This document shows positions 29,774 through 54,022 of a stretch of DNA of 64,000 bases, piece by piece. The position numbers were made by a program, and so were the translations under genes. The stretch covers positions 1-64,000 of the forward strand of contig NZ_SOAZ01000004.1 of the NCBI RefSeq assembly GCF_004364155.1. The letters are read 5' to 3'. Source of the stretch: Fonticella tunisiensis. Its GTDB lineage: Bacteria > Bacillota > Clostridia > Clostridiales > Caloramatoraceae. The notes under the pieces are model-generated. The model was not told where the DNA came from, made no database searches, and saw nothing but the letters and a program-made list of their open reading frames with translations. Each line of letters starts with the position of its first letter. Position 1 is the first letter of the stretch.

Positions 29774-30901
29774 TCATTTATATTTCGCATATGCTTCTTC
29801 ATATACGTTTAAAGTTTGTGCAGCAGTTTTATCCCATCCAAAATCCTTTGATCTTTCATATCCCCTTTCAGCTATATCGTTTCTTAAGGTTTCGTCTTCA
29901 AGGACCCTTTCAAGAGCATCTATAAGCTCCTCAGTATCAAAGGGATTTATGAGGATTGCCCCGTTACCAACTACCTCAGGTATTGAGGAAACGTTTGAGG
30001 ATATAACGGGGGTTTTACAGGACATGGCCTCAAGGGGTGGAAGGCCAAAGCCTTCATAAAGTGAAGGATAAACGAAGACTGTGCAGCTGTTATAAAAATA
30101 GGGTAGATGCTCATATGGAATATACCCTGTGAAAATCACCTTATCATCAATTCCAAGGGTTTCACAGAGTCCCATTAGGTATGAATGATCATCCTTTGAT
30201 GGTCCTATTATTACAACCTTGTAATTCGTTGAAAGTTTTTTGTGTATTCTAGAGAAGGCAACAAGTATTGATTTAACGTTCTTTCTAGGGCTGAAACCTC
30301 CAAGGTATAATATAAAGTCATCTTCGATATTATAGTTTTTCTTCAAAAATTCCTTTGCATTGGACCTATCCATTGGCCTGAAATAATCATCTGCAGCAAG
30401 GGGAGTAACCTTTATTTTCTCCTCCTCCACATCGAATATCCTCATAATATCCTTCTTCGAGTATTCCGATACCGTTATTATCATATCCGAATTTTGTATA
30501 ATCTGGGGCATCTGAGCTATGAACCTTTTTAAATATCCCCTTCCAACGGTCTCGGGCATGATATATGGTATAAGGTCATGTATCGTTGAAATGTATATGC
30601 AGCTTTTCTGGGACGAAAGGCCAATGCCGTTTTGAGGTACATGATATATATCAATACCCCTGTTTTTCAGGTTTTCGGGAATAAAATATTCCTCAAAAAA
30701 TTTGTGGTGCTTTTTTGAGGCTATGCTTATCTTTATATTTCCATTTTTAGATATTTCCCTGTAGTTGGTTCCCCACCAGTATATAAAATACTCGTTTGAA
30801 GTGTCATATTTTAATATATATTTCAAAATCTGTTGAGTATATGTTCCAATACCTGTACCTGAATACCAGTTAGCACCTCTTGCGTCTATTCCAACCTTCA
30901 T
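29774..30901 (-). CDS. Glycosyltransferase family 4 (GT-B)
   Basis: 375-aa retaining glycosyltransferase. The acceptor loop is GTGIGTYTQ near residue 16, the sugar-nucleotide part begins at [10 protein letters not shown] near 208, and the E-x7-E motif is in [11 protein letters not shown] near 285. It is similar throughout to the second glycosyltransferase at 47972-49096. It diverges from the cotS cluster, so it probably decorates spore coat or another surface glycan. The donor sugar is unknown; the manC product GDP-mannose is one candidate. Confidence 0.9.
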   Translation of the reverse strand: MKVGIDARGANWYSGTGIGTYTQQILKYILKYDTSNEYFIYWWGTNYREISKNGNIKISIASKKHHKFFEEYFIPENLKNRGIDIYHVPQNGIGLSSQKSCIYISTIHDLIPYIMPETVGRGYLKRFIAQMPQIIQNSDMIITVSEYSKKDIMRIFDVEEEKIKVTPLAADDYFRPMDRSNAKEFLKKNYNIEDDFILYLGGFSPRKNVKSILVAFSRIHKKLSTNYKVVIIGPSKDDHSYLMGLCETLGIDDKVIFTGYIPYEHLPYFYNSCTVFVYPSLYEGFGLPPLEAMSCKTPVISSNVSSIPEVVGNGAILINPFDTEELIDALERVLEDETLRNDIAERGYERSKDFGWDKTAAQTLNVYEEAYAKYK

Positions 30902-30986: not shown

Positions 30987-31013
30987 ACATTTAGTGGGTG
31001 CATTCATATTATA
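30987..31013 (+). promoter_or_regulatory. Sigma-K promoter candidate for the cotS cluster
   Basis: ACA at 30987-30989 and CATATTATA at 31005-31013, with 16 nt between the AC and the -10, fit the sigma-K pattern AC-N16/17-CATAnnnTA. The same -10 box precedes yabG. Confidence 0.6.
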
Positions 31014-31055: not shown

Positions 31056-32069
31056 ATGGAAGAACTTAAGAAGCTTCTGGAAAGCAGCTATAACATAGAG
31101 ATCCTGAGCATAGAAAAGATTAAGAACGTTTACAAAATAAAAACGGAGGATGGGTACAAATGCCTTAAGTTTTCAAAGTATGATATAAACCAGTTTAATT
31201 TTATTATTTCTGCCATAGATCATCTTTTAAGAAGGGGATTTAAAAATATTCTTCCCCCTTATTCAACTCAAAAGGGTGATAAATATATAAAGCTTGATGG
31301 AGGATATGGATTTTTAACCGATTGGATAGAATCAAGGGAGGCAAATTTTAAAAATTCTGCAGAACTTAAACTTTGTGTAAAGACCCTCGCAGAATTTCAT
31401 CTTTCATCGAGGGGATTTGATTTTCCAGAGGGGGCAAAGGGGAGAAATTATTACGGGAGATGGATAAGGAAGTTTAAAAAAAGATGTGATGAACTTTTAT
31501 ATTTTAAGGCCCTTATAAAGTCAAAGGATAGCCTGTCTCAGTTTGACAACATATATTTAAAATATTTCGATGTCCATTATAAACAGGCCCTTAAGGCAAT
31601 TAAAGACCTCGAGGAATCAAATTATCTTGAGATTATGAAGGGGCATCAAGCCCTGGGGGGATTCTGCCACCATGATACCGCAAACCACAATTTCTTAATT
31701 ACAGATGATTTTATAGCATTTATGATAGACTTCGACTACTGCATATTCGATTCTCACCTGCATGACCTTTCAAGTATAATAATCAGAAATTTAAAATATG
31801 GAAACTGGGACTTTGAAAGGCTTCAGTTTATTCTTGATATCTACAGTGAGTTTATTCCGGTAAACATCGAAGAGCAGTATTTGATATTCTGCTTTATGGA
31901 GTTTCCCCAGGACTTCTGGCAGGTGGGACTCCAGTACTACATTGAAAAACAACCCTGGGGAGAGGATTTCTTCATTAAAAAGCTTAATAGAATCGTAGGT
32001 GACAGCAGGGATAGGATTGATTTTATTGAGAAATTTAGAGCAAGTTTAATGGAGGGTAGCAATGCTTAA
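31056..32069 (+). CDS. CotS family spore coat protein, kinase-like fold
   Basis: 337-aa protein of the CotS/YutH family, related to choline and aminoglycoside kinases. The catalytic-type motif CHHDTANHNFLI is near residue 205 and the metal-binding MIDFDYC near 224, followed by HDLSSIII. All key residues of the APH fold seem present, but no substrate is known. GGAGATG lies upstream of the ATG. It overlaps the next gene by 8 bp. Confidence 0.87.
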   Translation: MEELKKLLESSYNIEILSIEKIKNVYKIKTEDGYKCLKFSKYDINQFNFIISAIDHLLRRGFKNILPPYSTQKGDKYIKLDGGYGFLTDWIESREANFKNSAELKLCVKTLAEFHLSSRGFDFPEGAKGRNYYGRWIRKFKKRCDELLYFKALIKSKDSLSQFDNIYLKYFDVHYKQALKAIKDLEESNYLEIMKGHQALGGFCHHDTANHNFLITDDFIAFMIDFDYCIFDSHLHDLSSIIIRNLKYGNWDFERLQFILDIYSEFIPVNIEEQYLIFCFMEFPQDFWQVGLQYYIEKQPWGEDFFIKKLNRIVGDSRDRIDFIEKFRASLMEGSNA

Positions 32070-32377: not shown

Positions 32378-33328
32378 ATGAATATAAAGGAATCATATAA
32401 TTTGAATCCTAAAAGAATTATCAAAGTTAATGACGGATATCTTCTTCAGCTTTCAAAGGTAAAGCTTGTGCTGAGCCATGTTAGCTATAAGGAGTGGGAA
32501 ATTCAATGTGCTTCTGAGATTATAAATCGTCTTGTTTCAAAGGGATTTACAAACATAATCATTATAAGAAGAAATAGAGAAGGTAAGCCCTTTATAAATG
32601 AGTCAAACACCCTTTATATATTGACCGATAATGCAGAGGAATTGAGGTTTAAGCTGAACAGCAGGGAAAATGGAACTGCTATGGCGGAGGTTCTTGCTCA
32701 TTTTCATAACGCTGCAGAGGGATTCACTCCTCCCCCTGGAGTAAAAATGAAGGTACGATGGGGAAAGAAAATGGAAAAGTGCAGAAATTTGACGATGAGG
32801 ATTGAAAAGTTTGTTGATTATATCAGTGATAAAAAAAACTTAAGTGAGTTTGAAGCATACGCAAAGCCATATGCTCAGGAACTTTTAAGAAGGGCGAAGG
32901 CTTCCATGAAGATTCTAAAATCCATGGACTATATAAAGGGCCTTGAAAGCAGCATGAAGAGGAAAGAAGTGTGTATCAATGCAATTTCAAACAACACCGC
33001 CAAACTCTCAGGGGGACGGTTAACAATAACAAAGGTTTTCGATATCGCATACAACATGGTTGAAGAGGACGTTGCAGCGCTTATTAAAAAGCTTATTGAA
33101 GAAACAGGGGATAAGGGTGTGTATGATTATGTATTATCCACATACTGTAGGATAAGGAATGTGGATGAAAATTCAAGGAGAATAATAAGGGCCCTCGTTT
33201 CCTTCCCCTTTGATTCAATAAAAACTATTTCAAAGTATATGGATCATATGGATAGGGGGGAGGAACTGCTTAATAAGTTTAAAAAATATATGAAAAACGA
33301 GTATAAGACGGATATATTGGAGGTGTAA
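32378..33328 (+). CDS. Divergent CotS-like protein lacking kinase motifs
   Basis: 316-aa paralogue with the CotS layout: an N-lobe (LLQLSKVKLVLSHV), a helical stretch matching HFHNAAEGF in its relatives, and a C-lobe. The position of CHHD...N reads CINAISNN near residue 206, and the DFD position reads VFD, so catalytic and metal residues are missing. It is probably a pseudokinase or purely structural coat component. It lies between two genes that keep the motifs, 2 bp before the next. Confidence 0.75.
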   Translation: MNIKESYNLNPKRIIKVNDGYLLQLSKVKLVLSHVSYKEWEIQCASEIINRLVSKGFTNIIIIRRNREGKPFINESNTLYILTDNAEELRFKLNSRENGTAMAEVLAHFHNAAEGFTPPPGVKMKVRWGKKMEKCRNLTMRIEKFVDYISDKKNLSEFEAYAKPYAQELLRRAKASMKILKSMDYIKGLESSMKRKEVCINAISNNTAKLSGGRLTITKVFDIAYNMVEEDVAALIKKLIEETGDKGVYDYVLSTYCRIRNVDENSRRIIRALVSFPFDSIKTISKYMDHMDRGEELLNKFKKYMKNEYKTDILEV

Positions 33329-33330
33329 CA

Positions 33331-34350
33331 GTGGAATATAGATACAGGGATAAGGCATATCTATCCAAATATTTTCTTGATACGGATCTTTTTGACAATT
33401 ACGATTTTTTAGTCGAGGATGCAACTCCAATACGTACAATATATATTCTTAAAACCGATAAGGGTATGAAGATATTAAAGAAGGTCGATTATGGAACAGA
33501 GGAAGTTATGTTTTTATACAATTCCCTGAATAAGATAAGAAGGAAATACCCATATGTGGTAAACTTCAAGGAAACCATATTCGGAAAGCCCTATGTGGAA
33601 TATGAAGGAGGAATTTATACTGTAATTGACATAATAGAGGGAAGGGAGTGTATATTTGAAAATCCCATAGACCTTTTAAAGGTATCAAAGGCCCTGGCAA
33701 AGCTTCATATTGCAGGGGAGAATATAGAGGTATATAACGGCAAAAGGAATCAACTGGGCAAGATGATAGATAAGTTCAGGGAAAAGGCAAAATCCATGGA
33801 GGTATATAGGGATATTGCCAATATCCATATAAACAAGAGCGAGTTTGACAGATTGTACCTTGAATATGCGGACTATTATATAGGATGCATAAAGGATGCT
33901 TCAAAGCATCTTGAAAGATCGCCCTACAGGGAGCTCTGCATGACATCACATACTCTATGCCATCACGACCTTGCACACCATAATATCTTAATAGGAAACG
34001 ATGACAACGTCTACTTCATAGACTTTGACTACTCAGTGATAGATCTTCCGTATCACGACCTTTCCAACATTATCACCAAGGCTATAAAGCATAATGGGTG
34101 GAATATAGAAATTTCTGATTCAATAATGGAGGCATACATGTCTGAGAAGAGGCTTTCAAAGGAAGAAATAAGCGTCCTATATGGATACCTTCTCTTTCCC
34201 CAGGATTTCTACGATATATCGTCCTTCTACTACATGAGAACAAGAAGCTGGGATGAGGATGAGTTTGTGGATAAACTTAAGAGAAAGGCTGGGTATAAGG
34301 AGGACAGGGAGAGGTTCTTAAAGGAATTTAAGAGGAAATGGGTGGATTAA
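33331..34350 (+). CDS. CotS family spore coat protein, kinase-like fold
   Basis: 339-aa CotS-family protein. The N-lobe Lys is probably in MKILKKVDYG near residue 49. The catalytic-type motif CHHDLAHHNILI is near 210 and FIDFDYS near 229, then HDLSNII. All hallmark residues are intact. GGAGGTG precedes the GTG at 33331; the previous gene's stop is 2 bp upstream. It is the last gene of the cluster and is followed by a strong terminator. Confidence 0.87.
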   Translation: MEYRYRDKAYLSKYFLDTDLFDNYDFLVEDATPIRTIYILKTDKGMKILKKVDYGTEEVMFLYNSLNKIRRKYPYVVNFKETIFGKPYVEYEGGIYTVIDIIEGRECIFENPIDLLKVSKALAKLHIAGENIEVYNGKRNQLGKMIDKFREKAKSMEVYRDIANIHINKSEFDRLYLEYADYYIGCIKDASKHLERSPYRELCMTSHTLCHHDLAHHNILIGNDDNVYFIDFDYSVIDLPYHDLSNIITKAIKHNGWNIEISDSIMEAYMSEKRLSKEEISVLYGYLLFPQDFYDISSFYYMRTRSWDEDEFVDKLKRKAGYKEDRERFLKEFKRKWVD

Positions 34351-34528: not shown

Positions 34529-35779
34529 TTAATTAACCGTCCCTATGTCCCTTCTGAAATACATTCCTTCAAAATGTATTTTGTTTATATCTTCATATGC
34601 CCTGGAAGTTGCTTCCTTTAAGGTTTCACCTGTGGCCGTAGAGCAGAGCACCCGTCCGCCGGTTGTTATCAAATTATTGTTTTCATAGGATGCTCCTGCT
34701 ATAAATATTTTATTTTCTGCCTTGCATATTCCTTTAATTTCAAACCCCGTTTCGTATTTTCCAGGATAACCCTTTGAAGCTCCAACTACACAGCAGGAAA
34801 ATTCATCCCTCCATTCAATATTAAAGCATGATAATCGCTTATCAAGGGCCCTTAGGATTAGCTCAACAAAATCGCTTTTCATAAGGGGAAGAACCGCCTG
34901 GGTTTCCGGATCGCCCATCCTGACGTTGTATTCAAGTAGATATACCCCTTTTTGAGTTATCATTATTCCAAAGAAAATGATTCCCGTATAATCCATGCCC
35001 TCTGATTTTATTCCCTTAAGGGTGGGTTCAAGTATGTTCCTTATAAATTGCATGGAAACCTCTTCATTGAAGTATGGATTTGGGGCAATGGCTCCCATTC
35101 CCCCGGTGTTTGGTCCCCTATTTCCATCATATATGTTTTTATAATCCTTTGAGGATATGAAGGGGAGTATTGTTAATCCGTCGGTTATGGAAAGAATGGA
35201 AGCCTCAACCCCTTCAAGATATTCCTCTATAACAACTCTTTTACCCGATCCGTTAAAAATATCCTTCTCCATAAATGCCGTTAACACATCTTTAGCCTCA
35301 TTATGATTTTGGCATATTACCACACCTTTTCCTGCTGCAAGGCCATCAGCCTTTATTACAACCGGGTAGCTGCATTTATTTATATAATTTATAGCATCTT
35401 CCAAATCCCCAAAACTTTCATATTCTGCAGTTTTGACGCCGTATTTCTTCATGAACTCCTTTGCAAAAATCTTGCTTCCCTCAAGCTTTGCAGCATGCCT
35501 TGAAGGTCCAAATATCTTAAGGCCCTCAAGCTTGAATCTGTCAACTATGCCATCAACCAGGGGCCCTTCAGGACCAACTATCGTGAGGTCTATTTTTTCA
35601 TCCTTTGCAAACCTGACGAGATCATCTATTTCCTTTATATTTAGGTTTACGCACTTGTATTCATCCTTTGTGCCGCCGTTTCCTGGAGCACAGTATATAC
35701 TTTCAACGAGGGGGCTTTGAGATACCTTCCAGGCAATGGCATGCTCTCTGCCTCCGTTTCCAATTATAAGTATTTTCAT
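34529..35779 (-). CDS. purD: Phosphoribosylamine-glycine ligase
   Basis: 416-aa ATP-grasp enzyme forming GAR, the second step of purine synthesis. N-terminal ILIGNGGREHAIAWK binds phosphoribosylamine; the ATP-grasp segment has YPVVIKADGLAAGKGV near residue 138, and RGPNTGGMGA lies near 228. Length matches the family. It is the last gene of the pur operon, 13 bp after purH. Confidence 0.96.
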   Translation of the reverse strand: MKILIIGNGGREHAIAWKVSQSPLVESIYCAPGNGGTKDEYKCVNLNIKEIDDLVRFAKDEKIDLTIVGPEGPLVDGIVDRFKLEGLKIFGPSRHAAKLEGSKIFAKEFMKKYGVKTAEYESFGDLEDAINYINKCSYPVVIKADGLAAGKGVVICQNHNEAKDVLTAFMEKDIFNGSGKRVVIEEYLEGVEASILSITDGLTILPFISSKDYKNIYDGNRGPNTGGMGAIAPNPYFNEEVSMQFIRNILEPTLKGIKSEGMDYTGIIFFGIMITQKGVYLLEYNVRMGDPETQAVLPLMKSDFVELILRALDKRLSCFNIEWRDEFSCCVVGASKGYPGKYETGFEIKGICKAENKIFIAGASYENNNLITTGGRVLCSTATGETLKEATSRAYEDINKIHFEGMYFRRDIGTVN

Positions 35780-35792
35780 ATTATCACCACCA

Positions 35793-37292
35793 TCAGTGTT
35801 TAAAATGTCTCATCCCGGTTAAAACCATGGATATTCCATACTTGTCGCAGGCCTCTATTGATTCCTTATCCCTTATTGATCCTCCCGGCTGCATTATAGC
35901 CTTAATGTTATATTTCGCAGCCTCTTCTACAACGTCGCTAAATGGGAAAAAGGCATCAGAAACAAGGACTGAACCGTCCCCGGCTCTATCAAGGGCCTGG
36001 CATGCTGCCCATATTCTGTTTACCTGTCCTCCTCCAATTCCCTTTGCCTGGCCATCTTTTACAACAACTATGGCATTTGATTTTACATATTTTACAATCT
36101 TCATACCAAATATCATGTCCCTCATTTCCTTTTCCGTTGGATGTAATTTTGTTACAACGTTCAGAGTGTCAAGAAGTTTTCTATCAGCATCCTGCACTAG
36201 AAGGCCGCCGTCAACGGTTAATAGCTCAACCTTATCCTGTGGTTTTACGCTGCATTTAATGATCCTTAAATTTTTCTTGGCCTTTAGCACTTCAAGTGCA
36301 TCATCGTCAAATTCAGGGGCTATTACTATCTCCAGGAATACCTTAACCATTTCCTCCGCTGTTTTCCTATCGACTTTTCTGTTAAAGGCAACTATGCCAC
36401 CAAATATTGATATTGGGTCACATTCATAGGATTTTACATATGCCTCATATACAGTTTCTCCTATGGCAGCACCACAGGGAGAATTGTGCTTAAGGGCACA
36501 GCAGGCGGTTTCTTCAAACTCATTTACAACCTTCCATGCAATGTCCATATCCCTTATGTTGTTATAGGAAAGCTCCTTTCCATTTAGCTGAACAAAATCC
36601 TTCACAGAGCCCTTTTCTGATGTGGACACATAATAGGCTGCCCTTTGGTGAGGATTTTCACCATACCTTAAATCCATCATCTTCTTATATGAAATGGTGA
36701 AATAATCAGGGTATTCACCTCCAAGAAGGAAGCTGCTTATGGCAGCATCGTATGCTGACATAAGATTAAAAACCTTTCCAGCGAGATATTTTCTTGTATT
36801 GTAGTCAACATCCCCTGATTTTTTAAGCTCACTAATTATTCTGTCGTAATCATTTACATCTGTTAAAACCACAACATCCTTGAAGTTCTTTGCAGCAGCC
36901 CTTATCATTGTGGGACCGCCAATATCTATAAACTCAACCTTTTCCTCAAAGGATATTTTTTCATTAACCTTATCAAAGAAGGGATACAGGTTTACAACAA
37001 CCATATCAATTGGTCTTATTCCCTTGCCTTTTATAACTTCCATATGATCTTCCTTATCCCTTATTGCAAGGATTCCTGCATGAATGGATGGATGAAGGGT
37101 TTTAACCCTTCCGTCAAGTATCTCTTCAAAACCTGTAACTTCTGAAACCTCAATTACATCTATACCATTTTCCCTGAGATACTTGTAGGTTCCCCCCGTC
37201 GATATTATTTCAACTTCCATGTCTAAAAGAAACTTGGCTAAATCCAACACCTTGTCCTTGTTATATACACTAATAAGGGCCCTTTTAATCAT
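35793..37292 (-). CDS. purH: Bifunctional AICAR transformylase / IMP cyclohydrolase
   Basis: 499-aa bifunctional enzyme for the last two steps to IMP. The N-terminal cyclohydrolase domain ([15 protein letters not shown], then STGGTYKYL) covers about residues 1-185. The C-terminal transformylase domain has [13 protein letters not shown] near 209, with KHNSPCGAA near 256 carrying the catalytic Lys-His. It is a little shorter than the usual 510-520 aa. GGAGG precedes the ATG. Confidence 0.96.
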
Positions 37293-37314
37293 TAAAATCC
37301 CTCCTGATTAAAAT

Positions 37315-37953
37315 TTATATTCCAGTGTCCTTACCCGGCTGCATATCATTAATAATTACATTTCTTCCCTTAACCGTTACAGCACCTTTAATAATGTACC
37401 TTATGGCATCCGGCAGAGCCCTGTGCTCCTCCCTTAGCACTCTTTCCTGAAGGCTCTTTGGAGTATCAAAGCTGTATACAGGAACAACTCTTTGAAGTAT
37501 AATAGGACCAGTATCGGTATCATCATCTACGAAATGGACTGTGCAGCCTGAAAATTTAACCCCATACTCAATTGCCTTTTCGTGTACTTTCATCCCATAC
37601 ATTCCTTTGCCGCAAAAGGATGGAATAAGGGAAGGGTGTATATTTATTATTCTGTTTTTAAACTCCCTCAGGAGTGCTCCCTTCAGTATTGATAGAAAAC
37701 CTGCCAGGACAATTAAATCAACCTTATCCTTAAGTATTTTATATATTTCATCTGAAAGCTTTTCTCCATATAATTTTCTATCAAGTACATATGTTTTTAT
37801 CCCGAAGGCCTTTGCACGCTCAATGCCGTAGGCACCTTCCCTGTCGCTTATTACAGCTTCTATACTGCATTTTAAGTATCCTGTTTCAATGTTATCAATA
37901 ATGGACTGAAGGTTGCTTCCTCCACCGGAGATGAGAACTGCTATTTTATGCAA
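37315..37953 (-). CDS. purN: Phosphoribosylglycinamide formyltransferase
   Basis: 212-aa enzyme transferring formate from 10-formyl-THF to GAR. N-terminal VLISGGGSNLQSIID binds the phosphoribosyl part. The catalytic Asn-His-Asp are in RIINIHPSLIPSFCG near residue 103 and FVDDDTDTGPI near 142. It overlaps purM by 13 bp, so translation is coupled. Confidence 0.96.
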   Translation of the reverse strand: MHKIAVLISGGGSNLQSIIDNIETGYLKCSIEAVISDREGAYGIERAKAFGIKTYVLDRKLYGEKLSDEIYKILKDKVDLIVLAGFLSILKGALLREFKNRIINIHPSLIPSFCGKGMYGMKVHEKAIEYGVKFSGCTVHFVDDDTDTGPIILQRVVPVYSFDTPKSLQERVLREEHRALPDAIRYIIKGAVTVKGRNVIINDMQPGKDTGI

Positions 37954-38936
37954 ACTCCAGCACCTCCAGCCTGCACATAGCCTATTTTGTATGCCCGGTC
38001 ACCCATTCTTTCAATTTCGTTAACTATTTCATCGGCCATTTTGGGATCGACACATATCACAAAGCCTATTCCCATATTGAAGGTATTATACATCTCATCC
38101 TCATTAACGCCGAGGGACATGATATATTTAAATATATCGTGTACTTTGAAGCTGTCCCTGTGAATTATAGCGGTAAACTCATCCCTAAACATTCTTGGTA
38201 TATTTTCAATAAAGCCTCCGCCGGTTATATGGGCCATTCCCTTTATATTGAACCTTTTCATGAGTGAAAGAATAGTTTTTACATATATTTTAGTAGGCTC
38301 TAGGAGTACATCGCCCATTTTTTTGCCGTTAAAATCCATGTCAAGGTTTTTTATTAGCTTTCTAACTAAAGAGTAACCGTTGCTGTGAATTCCTGAGGAT
38401 TCTATTCCAATTAAAATATCCCCATCCTGTATGGTGCTTCCGTCAACAATACTGTCCTTTTCAACTATGCCAACTGCAAAACCTGCTATATCGTATTCTC
38501 CATCCCTGTAAAATCCAGGCATCTCTGCGGTTTCCCCACCAATTAAGGCGCATCCTGCCTGAAGGCATCCCACAGATACACCCCTTACAAGGCTTTCTGC
38601 AATTTGTGCATCCAGCTTTCCGCAGGCTATATAATCAAGGAAAAAAAGAGGTTTTGCTCCATGGCACAGTATATCGTTTACGCACATGGCAGTGCAATCT
38701 ATTCCAACTGTATCATATCTTTTCATTTTATAGGCTATTTCAAGCTTTGTTCCAACTCCGTCGGTGCCTGAAACGAGTACTGGGTTTTTATAGCCGGAAA
38801 GTTCGAACATTCCGGCAAAGCTTCCGATGTCATTTATCACTCCAGGAATGAAGGTTTTTTTGCTGTGCTTTTTTATAAGATTTACTGTCTTATATCCCTC
38901 TTCAATATTAACTCCTGAGTCTTTATAGCTTATCAT
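37941..38936 (-). CDS. purM: Phosphoribosylformylglycinamidine cyclo-ligase
   Basis: 331-aa AIR synthetase. YKDSGVNIEEG at the N-terminus and GTDGVGTKLEIA near residue 55 are the family signatures, and GGETAEMPG near 131 completes the ATP site. I place the start at ATG 38936 with GGAAG upstream; a longer frame to 39014 runs into purF and adds non-homologous sequence. Confidence 0.95.
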   Translation of the reverse strand: MISYKDSGVNIEEGYKTVNLIKKHSKKTFIPGVINDIGSFAGMFELSGYKNPVLVSGTDGVGTKLEIAYKMKRYDTVGIDCTAMCVNDILCHGAKPLFFLDYIACGKLDAQIAESLVRGVSVGCLQAGCALIGGETAEMPGFYRDGEYDIAGFAVGIVEKDSIVDGSTIQDGDILIGIESSGIHSNGYSLVRKLIKNLDMDFNGKKMGDVLLEPTKIYVKTILSLMKRFNIKGMAHITGGGFIENIPRMFRDEFTAIIHRDSFKVHDIFKYIMSLGVNEDEMYNTFNMGIGFVICVDPKMADEIVNEIERMGDRAYKIGYVQAGGAGVCIK

Positions 38937-38940
38937 AGTA

Positions 38941-40350
38941 TTACTTCCTTTCCAGATGAAGTTTGTCCATCTCAATTGGGGCAGAAACAGGATATATTCC
39001 GTTAAAACATCCAAGGCAAAAATCCCTGTTTTCTCCCAGAGACTTTAAAAGCCCCTCTATGCCTAAATACCCCAGGCTGTCGGCACCAATTTCCTTCCTT
39101 ATGCTTTCCACATCAAGCTTTGAGCCTATAAGCTCCCTTCTGTGGGGAGTGTCTATCCCGAAGTAGCAGGGATACTTTACAACGGGGGATGCTGCCCTGA
39201 AGTGGACCTCAGCTGCACCGGCCCTTCTTAAAATTTCCACAAGGCGCCTGCTTGTGGTTCCCCTCACTATCGAGTCATCTATAAGAACTACCCTTTTACC
39301 CTTAACGTTTACCCTAAGGGCGTTTAGCTTAACGGAAACGGCCCTTTCTCTAAGCTCCTGGGATGGTGAAATGAAGGTCCTTCCAACATATTTGTTTTTT
39401 ATAAGGCCAATTCCATATGGTATCCCCGAGGCCATTGAATACCCCGAAGCCGCCGCTATTCCAGAGTCCGGCACTCCAATTACTATATCCGCATCGGCAG
39501 GGCATTCTCTGTAGAGCATCTCACCTGAGCGCTCCCTTGCTAAATACACGTTTATACCATCTATTGTGCTGTCAGGACGGGCAAAGTATATATATTCAAA
39601 GGCACAGGTTGCAGGTTTTATTTTCTCTGCGAAGTCTATTGATCTTATACCATCTTTATCGATTATCACTATTTCTCCAGGCTTTACATCCCTTATAAAT
39701 TCTGCACCAACCGCATCAAGGGCGCAGCTTTCAGAACACAGTATATAGCTTTCCCCTATTTTACCTATACATAGGGGCCTTATTCCATTTGGGTCCCTGA
39801 CTCCGATAAGCTTATCCTCAGTTAATATTACTATTGCATAGGAGCCTTTAACTGCCTGTATAGCATCAGCAACAGCCCTTTCTATGCCTTTCCCTGCGCC
39901 CCTTGCAATAAGGTTTAATATCACTTCGGAATCTATGGATGTTTGGAATATGACTCCGCCATCCTCCAAGAGCTCCCTTATGACGTCTGCATTTACAAGG
40001 TTTCCATTGTGGGCGATTGCCATTGAGCCAAGCTTATATTTGCCAAGGAGGGGCTGGGCGTTTGTCCTTGTGTTTAGCCCCGCCGTTGAATATCTAACAT
40101 GGCCTATGGCTGAAAAGCCCTTCATATTCATTAAAATATTTTCACTGAATACATCGCTTACAAGCCCAACATCCTTATGGCAAATTATGTCCTTACCGTT
40201 TGAGACAACTATTCCTGCGCTTTCCTGCCCCCTGTGCTGAAGGGCATAGAGCCCATAATAGGTTATTGAAGCTACATCCATTTCCTTATTTGAAAATATT
40301 CCAAAAATGCCGCATTCTTCTTTGAACTTATCTATTGATTCATAATACAT
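38941..40350 (-). CDS. purF: Amidophosphoribosyltransferase
   Basis: 469-aa committing enzyme of purine synthesis. A short propeptide precedes the N-terminal nucleophile Cys in EECGIFGIF near residue 14, as in the Bacillus-type enzyme. The PRPP loop [14 protein letters not shown] lies near 350. Cys residues in FCLGCFNG near the C-terminus fit the structural [4Fe-4S] cluster. I chose ATG 40350 (AAAGGAAG 6 nt upstream), overlapping purL by 19 bp. Confidence 0.95.
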
Positions 40351-42527
40351 GGCAGACTTCCTTTCCATGCAGACTTCATTTCCTTTATATTCAGGTTAAT
40401 TACATTCCGGCCGTTTATATTGACTTTAAAATCTGAGTCTATAACCTCTCCAACAACCTCTGCTTGAACACCAAGCTTTGTAAATATTTCAATTATGTCC
40501 TTTATATTGTCCTTTGAAGCTGTCAATATATATCTTCCCTGACTCTCTGAAAACAGGAATATATCTTCCCTTAATTCAGTGTCAATGTTTACGTTAACGC
40601 CCAATTCGTTTTTGAAGCAGCATTCAGAAAGGGCAACTATGAAGCCTCCATCTGAAATATCATGGGCGCTTTTTATAAGTCCCTTTTCAATTGCACTTAA
40701 AACGCCTTCGTTTGTATTTTTCTCTATCTCCACATGGACCTCAGGAACCCTTCCTGCTTCTATTCCGTAAATAGCGGAAAGATATTCGCTTCCTCCTATT
40801 TCAGCCTTTGTCTCTCCAACCAGGATAATGGAATCTCCCTTATCCTTAAAGTGTATATCCATTGAATTTTCGATGTTTTCAACGATGCCAACCATGCCTA
40901 TGGTTGGAGTAGGGTAGATTGCCATCTTTTCTGATTGGTTATAAAAGCTTACATTACCGCTAATAACCGGAGTATCAAGTATCCTGGATGCCTCGTTAAT
41001 GCCAAGTATTGAATTTCTAAACTGATAGTAAACCCCTTCATCCTCAGGGCTTGCGAAGTTTAGGCAGTCAGTTATTGCAATGGGCCTTCCACCTGAGGCG
41101 GTTATATTTCTTGCAGCTTCACAGACTGAGGATTTAGCCCCCTCATATGGGTTTAAGTAGCAGTACCTGCTGTTGCAGTCAACCGTAAGGGCAATTCCTT
41201 TTTTCGTGCCCTTTATTCTAAGTACCCCTGCATCCCCTCCAGGTACTACAACTGTATCGGTTCCTACCATGTAGTCGTACTGGCTGTATACCCATTCCTT
41301 TGAGGCTATGTTAGGGGATTTTAACATTGTAATTAAAGTTTCACTTAAGTTCTCAGGGCAGGGGAGGTTTGCTATATCCATATTTGATAATTTATCCATG
41401 TATTTTGGCCTTCTATAGCTTCTATAGTTTACAGGGCTTCCATCTGCAAGGGATGAAGCAGGAACCTCGGCAACAACCTTTCCATTCTCTAAGACCCTTA
41501 GCATTCCATCATCTGTAACCCTTCCGATAACTACTGCATGCAGCCCCCATTTGTTAAATATTTCAAAGACCTTATCCTCCTTGCCCTTTTCAACAATTAC
41601 AAGCATTCTTTCCTGTGATTCGGATATCATTATTTCCCTTGGAGTCATCCCCTTTTCCCTGGTTATAACCCTGGCTACATCTATCTCTATTCCGCTTCCA
41701 CCCCTTGATGCAGTTTCGCAGCTTGCCGAGGTGAGCCCTGCAGCACCTAAATCCTGAATGCCAACGACGCAGTCCGTTTTGATTAATTCAAGGCAGGCCT
41801 CCATAAGAAGCTTTTCCATAAAGGGATCTCCCACCTGAACTGCTGAGCGGTTTTCCTCCGACTCCCTTGTAAGGTCGCATGAGGCAAAGCTTGCTCCGCC
41901 TATGCCGTCCCTTCCGGTGGTGTGCCCAACGAGCATAACGGAGTTTCCAACACCCCTTGCAGTACCCTTTTTGATATCCTTCTTTTCAAGTATTCCAACG
42001 CTCATGGCATTGACAAGGGGATTGTCGTTATAACATTTGTTAAAAACAGTTTCTCCTGAAATGGTTGGAATTCCAACGCAGTTTCCATAATCCCCAATTC
42101 CCCTTACAATACCCCTTAAGAGCTTTTTAGTCTTTTCATCCTTTAATTCTCCAAATCTTATGGAGTTCAAATTTGCTATGGGTCTTGCTCCCATAGTAAA
42201 TATATCCCTTAAAATCCCTCCAACTCCTGTTGCAGCCCCCTGATAGGGTTCAACGGCTGAAGGGTGGTTGTGACTTTCTATTTTCATTGCAATGGCAAAT
42301 CCATCTCCAATATCCACTATGCCTGCATTTTCGCCAGGGCCCTGGAGAACCCTTAAACCCTTTGTGTTAAATAATTTGAGAAGTGCCCTTGAGTTTTTAT
42401 AGCTGCAGTGTTCGGACCACATGACGCCATACATGGCAAGTTCCGTTTCGTTTGGTTCACGTCCTAGTATTTCAACTATTTTATTATATTCTTCCTCTAA
42501 AAGTCCTACCATTTTATAGGGTTTCAT
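40332..42527 (-). CDS. purL: Phosphoribosylformylglycinamidine synthase subunit PurL
   Basis: 731-aa small-form PurL, which works with separate PurQ (glutaminase) and PurS proteins, both encoded upstream. The catalytic His lies in [11 protein letters not shown] near residue 30, with [21 protein letters not shown] near 83 and [19 protein letters not shown] near 258. It converts FGAR and glutamine to FGAM. AGGAGGATG precedes the start. Confidence 0.96.
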
Positions 42528-42538
42528 CCTTCATCCTC

Positions 42539-43195
42539 CTATTTAAAGCTTTCTATCATTCCCTTAAAAAGTCTTATTCCATCTGTTCCCCCAAGCAGGG
42601 AGGAGGCTCTTCTCTCAGGGTGCGGCATCATTCCAAGTACGTTGCCTTTTTTGTTTATAATCCCTGCTATGTCATTTCTTGAGCCGTTGGGGTTATTTAC
42701 ATATCTAAAGACTATCTGATTATTCCTCTCAAGCTCCTTTAGGGTTTCATCGTCGGCATAATAGTTTCCTTCACCGTGGGCTATGGGGAAGTTCACCCTT
42801 TCCCCCTTTTTATAAAGCCTTGAAAAAAAGGTATTATCGTTTGAAACTTCAAGTATGCAGTCTGAGCATATAAACTTTAGATCCATATTTTTAAGGAGGG
42901 CTCCTGGAAGGAGTTTAAGTTCCGTAAGTATTTGAAATCCGTTGCATATTCCAATAACATATCCACCATTTTCAACATAGTCATATATCCCCTCAAGTAT
43001 TTTTGAAAACCTTGCAATTGCACCGCACCTTAAATAATCCCCATAGGAAAAGCCACCCGGCAGAACTAAAAGATCAACATCTATCTTATCTTCGCCGTGC
43101 CATATATATTTGACGTCAGCTCCAAGTTCCTTTAACACACTGTATACATCGCTATCGCAGTTGGAACCAGGGAATACAACAACACCAGCCTTCAT
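42539..43195 (-). CDS. purQ: Phosphoribosylformylglycinamidine synthase subunit PurQ
   Basis: 218-aa class I glutaminase. [14 protein letters not shown] is the N-terminus, [11 protein letters not shown] near residue 83 holds the nucleophile Cys, and MMPHPER near 196 the catalytic His-Glu region. The ATG at 43195 begins 1 bp after the purS stop and has GAGGAATAAA upstream. It supplies ammonia to PurL. Confidence 0.96.
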
Positions 43196-43196
43196 T

Positions 43197-43442
43197 TTAT
43201 TCCTCCTCGATTCTGTATGAATATACCTCAATTTCAGGGTTTATCAAAAGCTTTAGACACATTTCATCAATCAATTTCTCTGCATTTTCCCTATTCATAT
43301 CGTTTAGCGTAACTTCTATATGTTTTCCTATTCTAACGGTTTCTACCTCAAATCCGAGTTTTGAAAGCCCTTCCTTTACTGCCGTTCCCTGAGGATCCAG
43401 AATACTTTTTTTTAAGGTTACATCTATATATGCCTTAAGCAT
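43197..43442 (-). CDS. purS: Phosphoribosylformylglycinamidine synthase subunit PurS
   Basis: 81-aa structural subunit joining PurL and PurQ. The pattern [15 protein letters not shown], then VRIGKHIEV and C-terminal [13 protein letters not shown], is typical. It overlaps purC by 8 bp. Confidence 0.95.
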
Positions 43443-44151
43443 TGACTACTCCTCCTATTCTCTTAAGTATCTCGGCATATGCTTCACGCACGTTCCCAAG
43501 GTCCCTTCTAAATCTGTCCTTATCCAGCTTTTCACCTGTTGCAGCGTCCCAGAATCTGCATGTATCAGGTGATATTTCATCTGCAAGGAGTATTTCTCCA
43601 TTATATCTTCCAAATTCAAGCTTAAAATCTATGAGCTTTATGTTTTGCTTTAAGAAGAAATCCTTTAGAATGCTGTTAACCCTTTCTGCTGTTTTGTATA
43701 TGGTTTCAAGCTCCTCAAAGGTTGTAAGTCCTATGGCTACTGCGTGATAATCGTTTATAAGGGGGTCTCCAAGATCATCGTTTTTGTAGCTTATTTCAAA
43801 GACGGTTGTTTTAAGCTCCATTCCCTCTTCGATGCCAAGCCTTTTAGCCATGCTTCCGGCAGCCGTGTTTCTAACTATGACCTCAAGGGGTATTATTTCA
43901 ACTTTTCTGCAGAGCTGCTCCCTTTCATTCAGTTTTTTTATAAAGTGGGTTTTAACACCGTGTTTTTCAAGGAGCTCAAAAATCATGGATGTTATACTGT
44001 TATTGAAAATTCCTTTATCCTCAATCTGGTCCCTTTTTTCACCATTAAAGGCCGTTGCATCGTCCTTGTAATAAATTATTACCCTGTCATCATGGTCGGT
44101 GGAATACACCTTCTTAGCCTTTCCTTCATAAAGAAACTCCTTCTTTTCCAT
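43435..44151 (-). CDS. purC: SAICAR synthase
   Basis: 238-aa phosphoribosylaminoimidazole-succinocarboxamide synthase. [10 protein letters not shown] at the N-terminus and [16 protein letters not shown] near residue 77 are family signatures; [10 protein letters not shown] near 194 is the second motif. The ATG overlaps the purE stop codon by one base. Confidence 0.96.
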
Positions 44152-44630
44152 TAAAGTTCAACTCCTTCATCATTTTCTTTTATAAATTTATCCTTTATGT
44201 TTAATCTGAAGCTTTTTAACTTCTTACCGAGCTTAGGATATTTTATGGATAGTATTTGGACGGCCAGCATGCCGGCATTGTAGCTGTTGTTTATACCAAC
44301 TGCAGCAACAGGAATTGATTTTGGCATTTGAACTATTGAGAGAAGTGAATCAAGTCCCATGAGGGATGCGTTTATGGGAACTCCAATGACAGGAATAGTT
44401 GTATGGGATGCTATTACTCCTGGAAGGTGTGCTGCAAGGCCTGCCCCTGCGATTATACATTCACAGCCTTCTCTTTCAAGATGCTCAATGGTTTCAATCA
44501 GCTTTTCCGGAACCCTGTGGGCAGATAATATAAAGGCCCTGTACTCAACTCCAAACTCTTTTAAGCACTCTGCAGCGCCCTTCATTACGTTAACATCTGA
44601 TTTGCTTCCGAAAATGATAGCTGCCTTCAT
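44151..44630 (-). CDS. purE: N5-carboxyaminoimidazole ribonucleotide mutase
   Basis: 159-aa class I Pur[16 protein letters not shown] binds the phosphate, SAHRVPEKL near residue 36 carries the catalytic His, and [13 protein letters not shown] lies near 63. First gene of the ten-gene pur operon, about 130 bases after the guanine riboswitch aptamer. AGGAGG precedes the ATG. PurK, PurB and PurA are not in the window. Confidence 0.96.
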
Positions 44631-44665
44631 AGCAAGACCTCCTGATATGAAAATTTAATGTTTGA

Positions 44666-44709
44666 ACAAAAAGAACAAAATTCACCCTGTGGGTAAATTC
44701 AGAGTGAAT
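44666..44709 (-). terminator. Riboswitch-controlled terminator upstream of purE
   Basis: On the minus strand ATTCACTCTG pairs with CAGGGTGAAT and is followed by TTTGTTCTTTTTG. The loop GAATTTACCC can instead pair with GGGTAAATTC of the aptamer P1 3' strand, a clear antiterminator. Confidence 0.85.
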
Positions 44710-44752
44710 AAAGACAAAATACTATACGTCTTGACATATAGAGAATGTCTAA

Positions 44753-44838
44753 TCGTTGAATTTACCCATAGTCGAAAGATTTACGGTCTTTCGGTAGAAA
44801 CTTCTGAACCATATTTCCAGAATTATATGGATAAATGA
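44753..44838 (-). promoter_or_regulatory. Guanine-class purine riboswitch
   Basis: The minus strand reads ATTTATCC-ATATAAT-TCTGGAAATATGG, then AAGTTTCTACC, then CCGTAAATCTTTCGACTATGGGTAAAT. P1, P2 and P3 all pair, and the conserved J2/3 and J3/1 bases are present. J3/1 reads GACTAT with C at the specificity position, so it binds guanine or hypoxanthine rather than adenine. Ligand binding locks P1 and lets the terminator form, turning off the pur operon. Confidence 0.93.
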
Positions 44839-44848
44839 ATATTAATTT

Positions 44849-45106
44849 TATCCGTTGTGCTAATTCAAGAACTAAGCGGAGATAAAAAATATATGAAATT
44901 CACATAAAGCGGGCAATTAGAAGTTCTAGGCGAAGGGATGCAGAAAAATCCTAGAACTTTCGTTTGTTTGAGAGAAGCGAGTTTAACGAAAGTTCTTGAT
45001 TTTTCAAATCCCGAGCCTTAGAACTTCTTTGCTAAGCGTACTCGTGAATGGAACATATTTTTTATCGCAGCGTCAGTCTGTAAATTTATCTAGCACAACG
45101 GATTAA
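44849..45106. repeat. Dispersed repeat, copy C: large palindromic element
   Basis: Two inverted arms. The left (44849-44914) reads TTATCCGTTGTGCTA...GATAAAAAATATATGAAATTCAC; the right (45038-45106) reads GTGAATGGAACATATTTTTTATCGCAG...TAGCACAACGGATTAA. Between them lie a second inverted pair, AGAAGTTCTAGG/CCTTAGAACTTCT, and ACTTTCGTTTGTTTGAG/AACGAAAGTTC. The right arm matches copies A and B. A probable purE promoter (minus strand TTGAAT-N18-TAATAT) straddles its left edge. Confidence 0.75.
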
Positions 45107-45402
45107 TTTTATATTTGTATATTATCATTTTACTGCAAATAAATCAATATTTTTGTTAAAATAAAGATTAAATTTCGTTACAATACGAATATTATATTTA
45201 ATAAAATATATTAATTTCGAAAAATCTTTTTGTAATCCTTACTTACCACTGGCTGACATTTTCTAAGGGAAGGTAACAGTTAGATGTTGTTAACCGTCCC
45301 TAAATGTATTATAATTATAAAAGAAAGGTCACGAAGGCCTTCACCGGTTGATATGTTTTAAGAAGCCCCCAATGCGTATATTAAATGAAAAGCTTACCAC
45401 GA

Positions 45403-45434
45403 AGGTAGCACTATTTGTGCTGCCTTTATTTTTT
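45403..45434 (+). terminator. Leader terminator before cbiM
   Basis: AGGTAGCAC-TATTT-GTGCTGCCT followed by TTATTTTTTG lies immediately before the cbiM ribosome-binding site. It marks a leader that could be attenuated by metal or cobalamin. The leader itself (45240-45400) contains another hairpin (about 45267-45303) but no riboswitch class I can identify. Confidence 0.7.
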
Positions 45435-45447
45435 GAGGAGGTGTTTT

Positions 45448-46434: not shown

Positions 46435-46442
46435 GTGGAAGT

Positions 46443-47222
46443 GTGGATTGGCTTTTTAGAGAGGATAGGTACGAACCTGGAAGTGACAGCTTAAAATTTA
46501 TAGACAAAAGTCTGATGTCTATACTGAAAATATTATCAAAGATCGATAGATTGGGTGGGCAAAGGAGAGGGATCCTTTATGGTGTAACTCCACCATTAAA
46601 GCTTATTTCAACCATTTTAACTGTTGTATGTGTGTCAACTTCACGGGACGCAACCTTTCTTCTCTCTGCAGGATTATTTGTTTTAATAAACCTTATTATG
46701 CTTGAAAAAAGCGACAGAAAAAGAGTTTTAGCCCTTGGAATTACAGCGTCTTCCTTTAGTGCTGTTATGCTTATACCATCCATGGCAACGGGAAACATAA
46801 TAAACAGCTTAATTATCGTATACAAGGTTTTACTCACCGTCTCAATGGCCAATATTTTATCGGTATCCACTGGATGGTTTGATGTGTCAGCCTCGCTTAA
46901 ACTTCTTCTAATACCGGATATTTTCATACTGGTGCTTGAAATAACTTTAAAATATATTTATCTTCTTGGAGAGATATCATTAAATATGCTTACTGCCCTT
47001 AAAATTAGATCTATAGGCAAAAACAACAACAAATACTCCTCAATATCAGCCCTTATGGGGAATTTATTTTTAAAATCGAAGGAAATGGGGGAGGAGCTTT
47101 ACTCGGCCATGGAATGCAGGGGTTTTACAGGAGAATATAAAAGGGTATTAGCCTTTAACATATCGAGGATAGATGCAGTTTATGCTATAATTGTACTAGC
47201 TTTAACTGCAGCATATTTTTAA
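46443..47222 (+). CDS. cbiQ: ECF transporter T component (CbiQ)
   Basis: 259-aa membrane coupling protein with four or five hydrophobic segments. The C-terminal half holds the coupling helices with the ALKIRSIG and MECRGFTGEYKR pattern (the latter being the family's A-R-G-like motif) that contacts the ATPase. The GTG at 46443 is 8 bp after cbiM. It links CbiM to CbiO. Confidence 0.88.
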   Translation: MDWLFREDRYEPGSDSLKFIDKSLMSILKILSKIDRLGGQRRGILYGVTPPLKLISTILTVVCVSTSRDATFLLSAGLFVLINLIMLEKSDRKRVLALGITASSFSAVMLIPSMATGNIINSLIIVYKVLLTVSMANILSVSTGWFDVSASLKLLLIPDIFILVLEITLKYIYLLGEISLNMLTALKIRSIGKNNNKYSSISALMGNLFLKSKEMGEELYSAMECRGFTGEYKRVLAFNISRIDAVYAIIVLALTAAYF

Positions 47223-47240
47223 CTGGAGGGTGAGGCAGCC

Positions 47241-47966: not shown

Positions 47967-47988
47967 CAGGTTTATTTACCTGCTATTT
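47961..47988. terminator. Bidirectional hairpin over two stop codons
   Basis: AAATAGCAGGT (47961-47971) pairs with ACCTGCTATTT (47978-47988). It includes the cbiO stop codon and the end of the convergent glycosyltransferase gene. Confidence 0.8.
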
Positions 47989-49096
47989 GCCTGTAGGCAT
48001 TTATAGTTTCAACAGCCGTTTTCTTCCAGTTGTACATTGCACTTCTTCTAAGGCCCTTAAAGGACATTTCAATTCTTAACTTCTCATCTTCTATGAGCAT
48101 AAGGAGCTTTTCCGCTATATCGTCTATGTTTTCAGGCTTTATATAAAGGGCGTCATCTCCCAATATTTCAGGGATGGAGGTGACGTTTGAAGCTATGGTG
48201 GGAGTTCCACAGGCCATTGCCTCAAGGGGAGGAAGTCCAAAGCCTTCGTAGAATGAAGGGTAGCAGAACACGCTTGCTGCATTATAGAATACGGGAAGCT
48301 CTTCAACGGGGACATATCCTGTAAAAATTACATCTTCCTTAAGGCCGAGTTCATAGGCAAGATCCCTGTAGTCATAGTAGGAACGTCCCTTTTTGCCAAG
48401 TATAACGAGTTTATATTTTTTCTTAAGCTTTGGCTTTATTTTGCTGAAGGCCTGAATGAGTCCCGTTATGTTTTTCCTGGGACTGAAGCCTCCTACATAG
48501 AGTATGAAATTTTCTTCAATTTTATAGTTTTCCTTTACAAAGTTTTTGCACAACGTTTTATTCTGAGGATAGTATATATCCTCTGCTGCAAGATGGGTAA
48601 CGAAGATTTTATCCTCAGGGAAGCCCATGGATTTTATTATATCCTGTTTTGAAAATTCCGACACCGTTATTATTCCGTCGCAGAGGGGTATGATTTCAGG
48701 TATTTCCTTCGTATATATTTTTAGATACTGGGGCCCTACAGTCTCGGGCATTCTGAAGGGAATAACATCATGAAGGGTTATGACAAAGGGGGAAGTTTTC
48801 TCCCTGGGAAGGCCTATACCGTTTTGAGGGACATGGTATATATCCATTCCTGTATTTGTTAGTATATTTGGAATATCTATTTCCTCCCAAAAATTTTCCC
48901 TTCTGTCCTCGGATATCAGCCTGATATCTATATTATCCCCGGGGTTAAGATCGGATATATTTTCATCAGGAAGAAAAAGAAGATACCTGTTTAGTTTATC
49001 AATGAGATTTATATTGTATATCAACTGGTAGGTATAGGTTCCAATTCCTGTTCCCCTATACCATCTTGCCGCCCGTGCATCAATTCCTATATTCAT
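47972..49096 (-). CDS. Glycosyltransferase family 4 (paralogue of the 29774 gene)
   Basis: 374-aa GT-B enzyme. It shares [33 protein letters not shown]-type and [16 protein letters not shown] features with the glycosyltransferase at 29774-30901; the two are clear paralogues. Sugar donor and acceptor are unknown. A plausible sigma-K -10 (CATATTATG at 49135-49127, minus strand) lies upstream, consistent with expression in the mother cell. Confidence 0.9.
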
Positions 49097-51249: not shown

Positions 51250-52245
51250 ATGGTAAGAGAAACTGAAATATCAACACAGTTTGGATTTAAAATATACGAA
51301 TTTATACCAATGAGAGGAGTGTATCTTCTAAAAACTAATAAAGGAAACAAATGTTTAAAAAAGATAAATTACGGAATTCAAAAGTTGATGTATTTATATC
51401 AAGCAAAGGAACATATAATAAGAAACGGTTTTAAAAATATTGACAGGTATAATCTATCCCTTGAAGGAACCCCCTATGCCCTTGTAAATGACGACATATA
51501 CGTTATAACAGATTGGATTGAGGGGAGGGAATGTGATTTTAAAAAAATTGACGAATTGATGAAGGCATCGGAAACCCTTGCAGTATTTCACTTAAGTGCA
51601 CGGGGCTTTATTCCCGATGAGAGCGTTAAAGTCAGGGATGATATAGGAAAGCTCCCTCAGACCATGGAAAAGAGGATGTCAACACTTAATAAAATGAGGG
51701 ACATAGCAAGAAAGAACAGGAGAAAAACTGAGTTTGATATTATGTACCTATCCAATGTTGATTCCTACCTGGACCTTGCAAAGCAGGCAGTTAAGACACT
51801 TGATATGGAGGGGTATATAAGGCTTTGTGAAAGGTCCTATTTTGACAGGGTTCTATGCCATCACGATTACACATACCATAATATACTGTTCGATAAGGAT
51901 GAAAACGCTCACATAGTAGATTTTGATTACTGTAAATCAGAGCTTCAGATATATGATGTTTCAACGCTTATAATAAAAGCCCTCAAGAGGCTTGACTGGA
52001 ACGTTGAATATGCAAGGGCTATTGTAGGTGCATATAATAGGGTAAGACAAATTAGCAGTGAGGAGGAAAATATGCTTAAAACGCTCCTTATATTCCCCCA
52101 GAGGTTCTGGAGGCTTGCAAACAGGTTCTATTATAGAGAATCAGGCTGGAGCGAAGGGGTGTTCATCAAAAAGATGAGGGAGATAATCGAAGAAAAGGAA
52201 AAATATTTGAATTTCATAGGAAATGTGGATGAGATTTTTAAATAA
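51250..52245 (+). CDS. CotS family spore coat protein, kinase-like fold
   Basis: 331-aa fourth CotS-like protein in the window. The N-lobe Lys is probably in KCLKKINYG near residue 35, as in the 33331 gene. The catalytic-type motif CHHDYTYHNILF is near 205, and HIVDFDYC near 223. It is followed by YDVSTLII rather than HDLS. GGGGGTG lies upstream of the ATG. It is alone, convergent with a GT2 gene. Probably a coat component with possible kinase activity on an unknown glycan or lipid. Confidence 0.87.
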   Translation: MVRETEISTQFGFKIYEFIPMRGVYLLKTNKGNKCLKKINYGIQKLMYLYQAKEHIIRNGFKNIDRYNLSLEGTPYALVNDDIYVITDWIEGRECDFKKIDELMKASETLAVFHLSARGFIPDESVKVRDDIGKLPQTMEKRMSTLNKMRDIARKNRRKTEFDIMYLSNVDSYLDLAKQAVKTLDMEGYIRLCERSYFDRVLCHHDYTYHNILFDKDENAHIVDFDYCKSELQIYDVSTLIIKALKRLDWNVEYARAIVGAYNRVRQISSEEENMLKTLLIFPQRFWRLANRFYYRESGWSEGVFIKKMREIIEEKEKYLNFIGNVDEIFK

Positions 52246-53054: not shown

Positions 53055-53089
53055 AAGAACCACTCTCCACATCTCTCAAATTGTCGTTA

Positions 53090-53117
53090 ACAAAAATTGT
53101 CGATATTTCATATTATA
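53090..53117 (+). promoter_or_regulatory. Sigma-K promoter candidate for yabG
   Basis: AC (53090-53091), 17-nt spacer, CATATTATA (53109-53117), matching the sigma-K pattern. In Bacillus subtilis yabG is transcribed by sigma-K. Confidence 0.7.
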
Positions 53118-53146
53118 TAATATACCTTTTGAAGGAGAGTGGTTCC

Positions 53147-54022
53147 ATGGATGAACTAAAGGTTGGAGATATCGTTATTCGAAAATCCTATGGAGGCGAT
53201 ATATATTTTAAAATAGTTCAGATTGTTAAAAAGCAGGACGGAAGGAATTTTTATATATTAAAGGGTACAAACCTGAGGATAATGGCCGATGCTCCAGGGG
53301 AGGATCTTGAAAAGCCTTCACTTAACAGAATAAGCCTGAACGATGAAACATATAACAAAAAGGTAAACACCATTATGAAGAAAATACTTCTTGCAAGGAG
53401 AAACCAGACCACAAGATTCAGGGGTGGAGTAATACAAAGGACAGAAGATGGTATAACCTTTGGAAAGGCAGGAAAGGTGATGCATTTAGATGGCGATGAA
53501 GAATATCTAAATGTATGTCTTCGGGGATACAAGCAGCTCGGAGTTGAAGCAATCGGAAGACCAGTCCCCGAACTCCAGCAGCCAGAAGTAATAATGGACT
53601 TACTTAAAGAATACAGGCCTGACATACTGGTAATTACAGGGCATGACGGCATGCTTAAGGGAAGTGTAAACTTTAGAAGTCTGGACAGCTATAGAAATTC
53701 AAAATATTTTGTAAAAGCAGTGAAAATAGCAAGGGAATTTGAGCCATCCTATGACGATCTTGTAATATTTGCAGGAGCATGCCAATCCCATTTTGAGGCT
53801 CTTATCGATGCAGGTGCCAATTTTGCCAGTTCACCCCATAGAATTCTCATTCACGCCCTTGATCCCGTATTCATATGTGAAAAAATAGCCTTTGGGAGCA
53901 TATCTAAATTTTTTACTCCTCAGGAGATACTTGAAAATACCATAACGGGAACAAGGGGGATTGGTGGCCTTCAAACAAGGGGAAAGTTCAGGGAGGGAAC
54001 ACCAAAATCTCCCTACGAATAG
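53147..54022 (+). CDS. yabG: Sporulation-specific protease YabG
   Basis: 291-aa cysteine-type protease that trims coat and cortex proteins in the mother cell. Recognised by KVGDIVIRKSYGGDIYFKI at the N-terminus, LHLDGDEEYLNVC near residue 108, ITGHDGML near 165 and FAGACQSHFEALI near 206, the latter including the likely catalytic Cys and His. I chose ATG 53147 (GAAGGAGAG upstream); a frame to 53081 covers the promoter. In Clostridium difficile YabG processes spore proteins needed for germination. Confidence 0.93.
   Translation: MDELKVGDIVIRKSYGGDIYFKIVQIVKKQDGRNFYILKGTNLRIMADAPGEDLEKPSLNRISLNDETYNKKVNTIMKKILLARRNQTTRFRGGVIQRTEDGITFGKAGKVMHLDGDEEYLNVCLRGYKQLGVEAIGRPVPELQQPEVIMDLLKEYRPDILVITGHDGMLKGSVNFRSLDSYRNSKYFVKAVKIAREFEPSYDDLVIFAGACQSHFEALIDAGANFASSPHRILIHALDPVFICEKIAFGSISKFFTPQEILENTITGTRGIGGLQTRGKFREGTPKSPYE

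Follow-up and report, generated by a model that had tools for sequence, protein, structure and literature searches.

What does a kinase fold still do once catalysis has been lost? This question is raised by a gene located at positions 32378-33328 of contig NZ_SOAZ01000004.1 of Fonticella tunisiensis, within the 64,000 nucleotides analysed here (the window). From the sequence alone, an initial annotation had proposed that this member of the CotS family is a pseudokinase that could scaffold or regulate its partners. The locus makes the question testable, as a single operon position across an order holds a kinase fold with an intact, a half-lost or no ATP lobe, in which some residues never change.

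A divergent member of the CotS family at a conserved position

As the initial annotation had noted, the window contains four CotS-family genes, and the gene under study is placed between two paralogues with intact motifs (Table 1). The three other proteins all carry CHHDxxxHN together with IDFD or VDFD. The divergent protein matches the NCBIfam model TIGR02906 with 102.9 bits (E 1.5e-29), which is below the curated cut-off of 172.7 bits and thus places it outside the curated core of the family as a homologue. A Pfam search with this protein returned no match, NCBIfam alone giving one, and a sequence match with YtaA was obtained at E 9e-7. Judged from these sequence comparisons, the protein is certainly homologous to the CotS family.

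Table 1. Positions of the features discussed, numbered from the first nucleotide of the window.
Feature	Positions	Strand	Details
GT4 glycosyltransferase, divergent from the CotS operon	29774..30901	-	PF00534 1.6e-43; same position in 38/38 loci
Sigma-K-like promoter ACATTTAGTGGGTGCATTCATATTATA	30987..31013	+	starts 69 nt before the operon
CotS-family kinase, motifs intact (BSKC2 by position)	31056..32069	+	TIGR02906 327 bits; CHHDTANHN, IDFD
Small basic coiled-coil-like ORF, 100 aa	32062..32364	+	overlaps the end of the preceding CotS gene by 8 nt
CotS-family pseudokinase, N-lobe kept (very probably BSKC6L type)	32378..33328	+	316 aa, ATG start
S192-M193-x3-E197, motif characteristic of the pseudokinase clade alone	32951..32968	+	S, M 37/37; E 35/37; 7-8% in intact paralogues
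Degraded catalytic HxD, I200-N201-A202	32975..32983	+	aligned with H237, Q238, D239 of YtaA
Degraded metal-binding DxD, K219-V220-F221 (probable alignment)	33032..33040	+	aligned with D257 of YtaA
CotS-family kinase, motifs intact, GTG start (BSKC1 by position)	33331..34350	+	TIGR02906 286 bits; CHHDLAHHN, IDFD
Second GT4 glycosyltransferase of the spore-coat cluster	47972..49096	-	PF00534 3.2e-45; syntenic in relatives
Fourth CotS-family kinase, motifs intact (BSKC4 by position)	51250..52245	+	TIGR02906 324 bits
YabG sporulation peptidase, cluster anchor	53081..54022	+	TIGR02855 366 bits; syntenic in relatives

CotS-family matches were obtained in all 60 related genomes searched. They were strongest within the family to which the window belongs (34-49% identity over the protein), while a second family gave shorter matches with 21-29% identity. 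Scanning genomes with a seven-row alignment recovered Fervidicella and Caloramator relatives and, more weakly, CotS-family proteins in Anaerotignum, Tyzzerella and similar genomes. Neighbourhoods were read at 38 orthologous loci, and these share one gene order: a glycosyltransferase gene on the opposite strand followed by CotS, pseudokinase and CotS, the last CotS gene being missing only at contig ends. Stretches of sufficient length continue with the second glycosyltransferase, a BSKC4-like gene and YabG. In a tree of 144 proteins all 38 pseudokinases form one clade (SH-aLRT 100) that is separate from the clade of each paralogue. Their reading frame is open at 37 of the 38 loci and cut by a contig end at the remaining one.

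The kinase fold is retained and the catalytic motifs are lost

AlphaFold predicted a structure with a mean pLDDT of 96.5 and a pTM of 0.92 from an alignment of 76 sequences of the window and its relatives, which included the intact paralogues and may thereby have raised the confidence of the model. Over the whole chain, the best match of this model in the PDB is 4pdy (Z 30.5, rmsd 2.9, 308 residues), followed by YtaA/CotI of B. subtilis (2q83; Z 28.2, rmsd 3.7, 312 residues); N-acetylhexosamine kinase, homoserine kinase and APH(9) come next. The confident model and its matches bear out the view that the overall layout of the CotS/APH (CAK/APH) kinase fold is kept, and they exclude a different fold. 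YtaA thus shares its whole-chain fold with the window protein at 15-17% identity, but it keeps the HxD, Asn and DxD expected of an active kinase, all three of which are absent here.

In the alignment with YtaA, H237 is replaced by I200, D239 by A202 and N244 by T207, and the beta-3 Lys is missing as well, whereas both structural residues remain, His as H110 and Asp as D231. The two sites read CINAISNNT and ITKVFDI. The initial annotation had placed CINA...N and VFD at the motif positions; the loss it reported stands, the detail needs correction. The triplet V220-F221-D222 is probably shifted by one residue relative to the DFD site, to which K219-V220-F221 would align, and D222 lacks conservation among the orthologues. 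Likewise, the Asn counted earlier is offset by one position from the catalytic Asn site, which T207 occupies in this protein.

The earlier proposal hinged on whether orthologues retain these motifs, and they do not: HxD occurs in none of the 38 and DxD in none of the 37 readable ones. The catalytic His position is occupied by L, I, M or V in every orthologue, and the Asp of HxD is kept in 13 of 38. Among the intact paralogues, both motifs are kept with one exception in 104, a D-to-N change in one downstream gene. The exception is a BSKC1-type paralogue (L073:8999-10036) with CHHN for CHHD, a single candidate for loss of catalysis. With motif loss across the clade, a confirmed kinase fold and purifying selection (see below), the pseudokinase reading is supported.

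The wider family also includes two spore-coat proteins of Bacillus, YutH and YsxE, which the literature likewise predicts to be pseudokinases and whose losses it describes as independent. The TIGR02906 model matches YsxE weakly (26.8 bits) and gave no match to YutH.

The gene very probably belongs to a known class

The class itself is already published. Scheeff et al. 2009 (PMC2860764) describe BSKC6 as a pseudokinase encoded in a BSKC2-6-1 operon with flanking glycosyltransferases, which has lost its N-lobe, and name the N-lobe-bearing form BSKC6L. The window gene has the same CotS - pseudokinase - CotS order, the glycosyltransferase neighbours and a BSKC4 gene nearby, and it is the middle gene of the operon both in the window and in the stretches from relatives. 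It has likewise lost HxD and retained the His and Asp of the fold (H148 and D269 in the published description, H110 and D231 here), and like BSKC6L it has a full-length N-lobe. Based on gene order and motif pattern, we have little doubt that it is a further BSKC6L-type pseudokinase. That paper reported BSKC6L solely in Caldicellulosiruptor and Anaerocellum, whereas the family of the window member includes Caloramator and Fervidicella. What our analysis adds to the consulted sections of PMC2860764 is a graded loss of the N-lobe, a set of residues invariant in this clade, the sigma-K-like promoter and the small coiled-coil gene.

The gene is under selection and has its own invariant residues

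Pairwise dN/dS values of the pseudokinase range from 0.05 to 0.27 for pairs with unsaturated synonymous sites, indicating that the gene is not decaying; compared with the paralogues the values are usually somewhat higher and once lower. As located by alignment to YtaA, S192, M193, Y225, D231 and P277 are unchanged in 37/37 orthologues, position 282 is Lys or Arg in 37/37, and E197 and E229 occur in 35/37 and 34/37, respectively. D231 and P277 are conserved family-wide, including the intact paralogues, whereas the latter rarely or never have S192, M193, E197, Y225 or E229 at the matching positions. The clade-specific residues adjoin the former catalytic loop. New invariant residues in place of the old motifs suggest that the active site was replaced rather than simply lost, and residues invariant only in this clade argue for a retained binding function, although they could also reflect folding alone.

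K282 aligns with D322 of YtaA, a residue listed as a substrate-pocket position by Scheeff et al. 2009 (PMC2860764). Gln occupies this position in the upstream paralogue, Arg in the BSKC4-like gene. Apart from K/R282, the pocket varies freely and is poorly conserved among the orthologues, as Scheeff et al. remarked for BSKC6 too.

Graded loss of the N-lobe and a small neighbouring gene

The window protein is full length, its modelled N-lobe comprising strands at 13-35, a helix at 39-54 and strands at 73-84. A full N-lobe is found in nine members of the window's family, the window gene included, and in two from a third family. In 20 orthologues of 234-290 aa, which form one clade (support 100/99) within one family, the N-lobe is absent. 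The loss is partial in seven orthologues belonging to two other lineages: just the first strands are missing, and the proteins begin at a point equivalent to residue 30-35. Their stop-to-stop frame spans just 288-296 codons, so a mis-called start does not account for the shortening. Parsimony on a C-lobe tree requires three N-lobe changes, and the two partial cases may represent one event, which the branch order there permits. A 253-aa orthologue without the N-lobe is still confidently predicted to fold (pLDDT 91.3) with YtaA as its top match. By analogy only, a comparison made in PMC2860764, the 250-aa orthologues resemble the KIND domain, a kinase C-lobe without an N-lobe that serves as a binding module, but this domain is metazoan and of another lineage.

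An unannotated ORF (Table 1) lies in the gap that separates the pseudokinase gene from the CotS gene preceding it, and an ORF of this kind, with 58-119 aa, occurs in the same gap in 19 of the 38 loci. Its dN/dS of 0.01-0.10, computable for close pairs, indicates purifying selection. No Pfam model scored above cut-off, and phmmer joins the window ORF to two others with 40-43 bits, the more distant members being weakly similar. Since similarity is weak and coiled coils resemble each other, common descent of these ORFs is argued from position, selection and a shared basic tail. Presence of the small gene does not track the state of the N-lobe, as it is both present and absent alongside full, partial and missing lobes.

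A sigma-K-like promoter precedes the operon

The pattern AC-N15..17-CATANNNTA represents the sigma-K promoter of B. subtilis, and this B. subtilis consensus was used for scoring. In 32 of 38 genomes a match begins 35-69 nt upstream of the operon's first gene, as compared to 1.5 expected from dinucleotide shuffles, and control segments from the same loci have a match in 3% (random) and 5% (AT-rich) of cases. As the site in the window had been spotted by eye before the pattern was tested, it is not independent evidence, whereas the other 37 loci are. The two later genes show no such enrichment, with the pattern upstream of the pseudokinase gene in 1/38 loci and upstream of the last gene in 0/37, consistent with a single promoter serving a single operon. 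The sigma-K-like promoter suggests that the operon is expressed late in the mother cell. In C. acetobutylicum, CAC2908-2910 are among the sigma-K-controlled genes that are down in a ccpA mutant (2012, PMC3507653); we take these genes to be this operon from their locus numbers next to yabG (CAC2905) rather than from their sequences. Against a late spore-coat reading speaks that Scheeff et al. (PMC2860764) reported no sigma-E site before this operon and considered that it may not be spore-associated.

Proposed role and alternative explanations

Altogether, we consider it fairly probable that the gene encodes a BSKC6L-type pseudokinase that is a late coat protein with a role in protein docking. 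Under sigma-K, the mother cell would produce it at a late stage along with the two paralogues, and it would be packed into the spore coat, where it would phosphorylate nothing and work as a binding module. Most likely, it would keep a partner positioned while the coat matures, this partner being a CotS paralogue, a glycosyltransferase or the coiled-coil protein, by analogy to B. subtilis, in which assembly of CotSA needs CotS (PMC2860764). The initial suggestion of a scaffold or regulator of its neighbours appears plausible. Clostridial spore-coat assembly, which is poorly known, would gain a defined group of late components that are probably co-expressed. A more specific version, which we put forward as a speculation, is that the dead active site became a docking surface (S192-M193-E197, Y225, E229, K/R282) for a fixed partner from the same operon, possibly the coiled-coil protein, with catalysis and subsequently the ATP lobe being shed stepwise and more than once and the docking site being kept throughout.

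The main rival is that the pocket still binds a ligand, an intermediate of the sugar or nucleotide-sugar type, which the protein would present to the glycosyltransferases, without any protein docking. The Lys or Arg at YtaA pocket position 322 in every readable orthologue and the constant linkage to glycosyltransferases are in line with such a pseudo-substrate binder, but the free variation of the remaining pocket positions, which holds for BSKC6 too (PMC2860764), makes it unlikely. Some pseudokinases are known to retain atypical activity, which, together with the HxD Asp kept in 13/38 orthologues, speaks against an inactive binder. An enzyme with a rearranged active site, in which other residues carry out phosphotransfer or another nucleotide-dependent reaction, could draw on this Asp and on the new invariant polar residues near the old site (S192, E197, Y225, E229 and K/R282). 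Yet the lobe that holds ATP is gone in 20 orthologues and partly gone in seven others, no DxD is left and the beta-3 Lys is missing in the window protein, so that we regard such an enzyme as improbable. Still harder to credit is a decaying kinase pseudogene that survived in the operon by chance. In most pairs the gene has evolved faster than its paralogues, and its N-lobe has been shortened repeatedly, which could be read in this way, but decay would call for dN/dS near 1 or frequent stops. Neither is seen, the frame being open in 37/38 loci at dN/dS 0.05-0.27, and invariant residues in 37/37 orthologues as well as confident folds with and without the N-lobe likewise contradict decay; the pseudogene reading is rejected.

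Further observations on the locus and related genomes

Two more divergent CotS-family genes are present in the genome outside the window. A divergent CotS-family gene of the same genome (L055:186-1238) reads CHDSFYYQN, with Ser at the catalytic Asp position and DxD kept, and may encode a second pseudokinase. In a further relative (L074) frameshifts interrupt every CotS-family gene, which points to an assembly with many errors and not to a biological cause. The YabG gene, too, has sigma-K-like sites in the 250 nt preceding it in 13 of 28 loci, the window being without one. Finally, a block of ~13 kb (34529-47966) with purine biosynthesis genes and cbiM separates the CotS operon from the second glycosyltransferase gene; the two are closer in relatives, and the block looks inserted or rearranged here.
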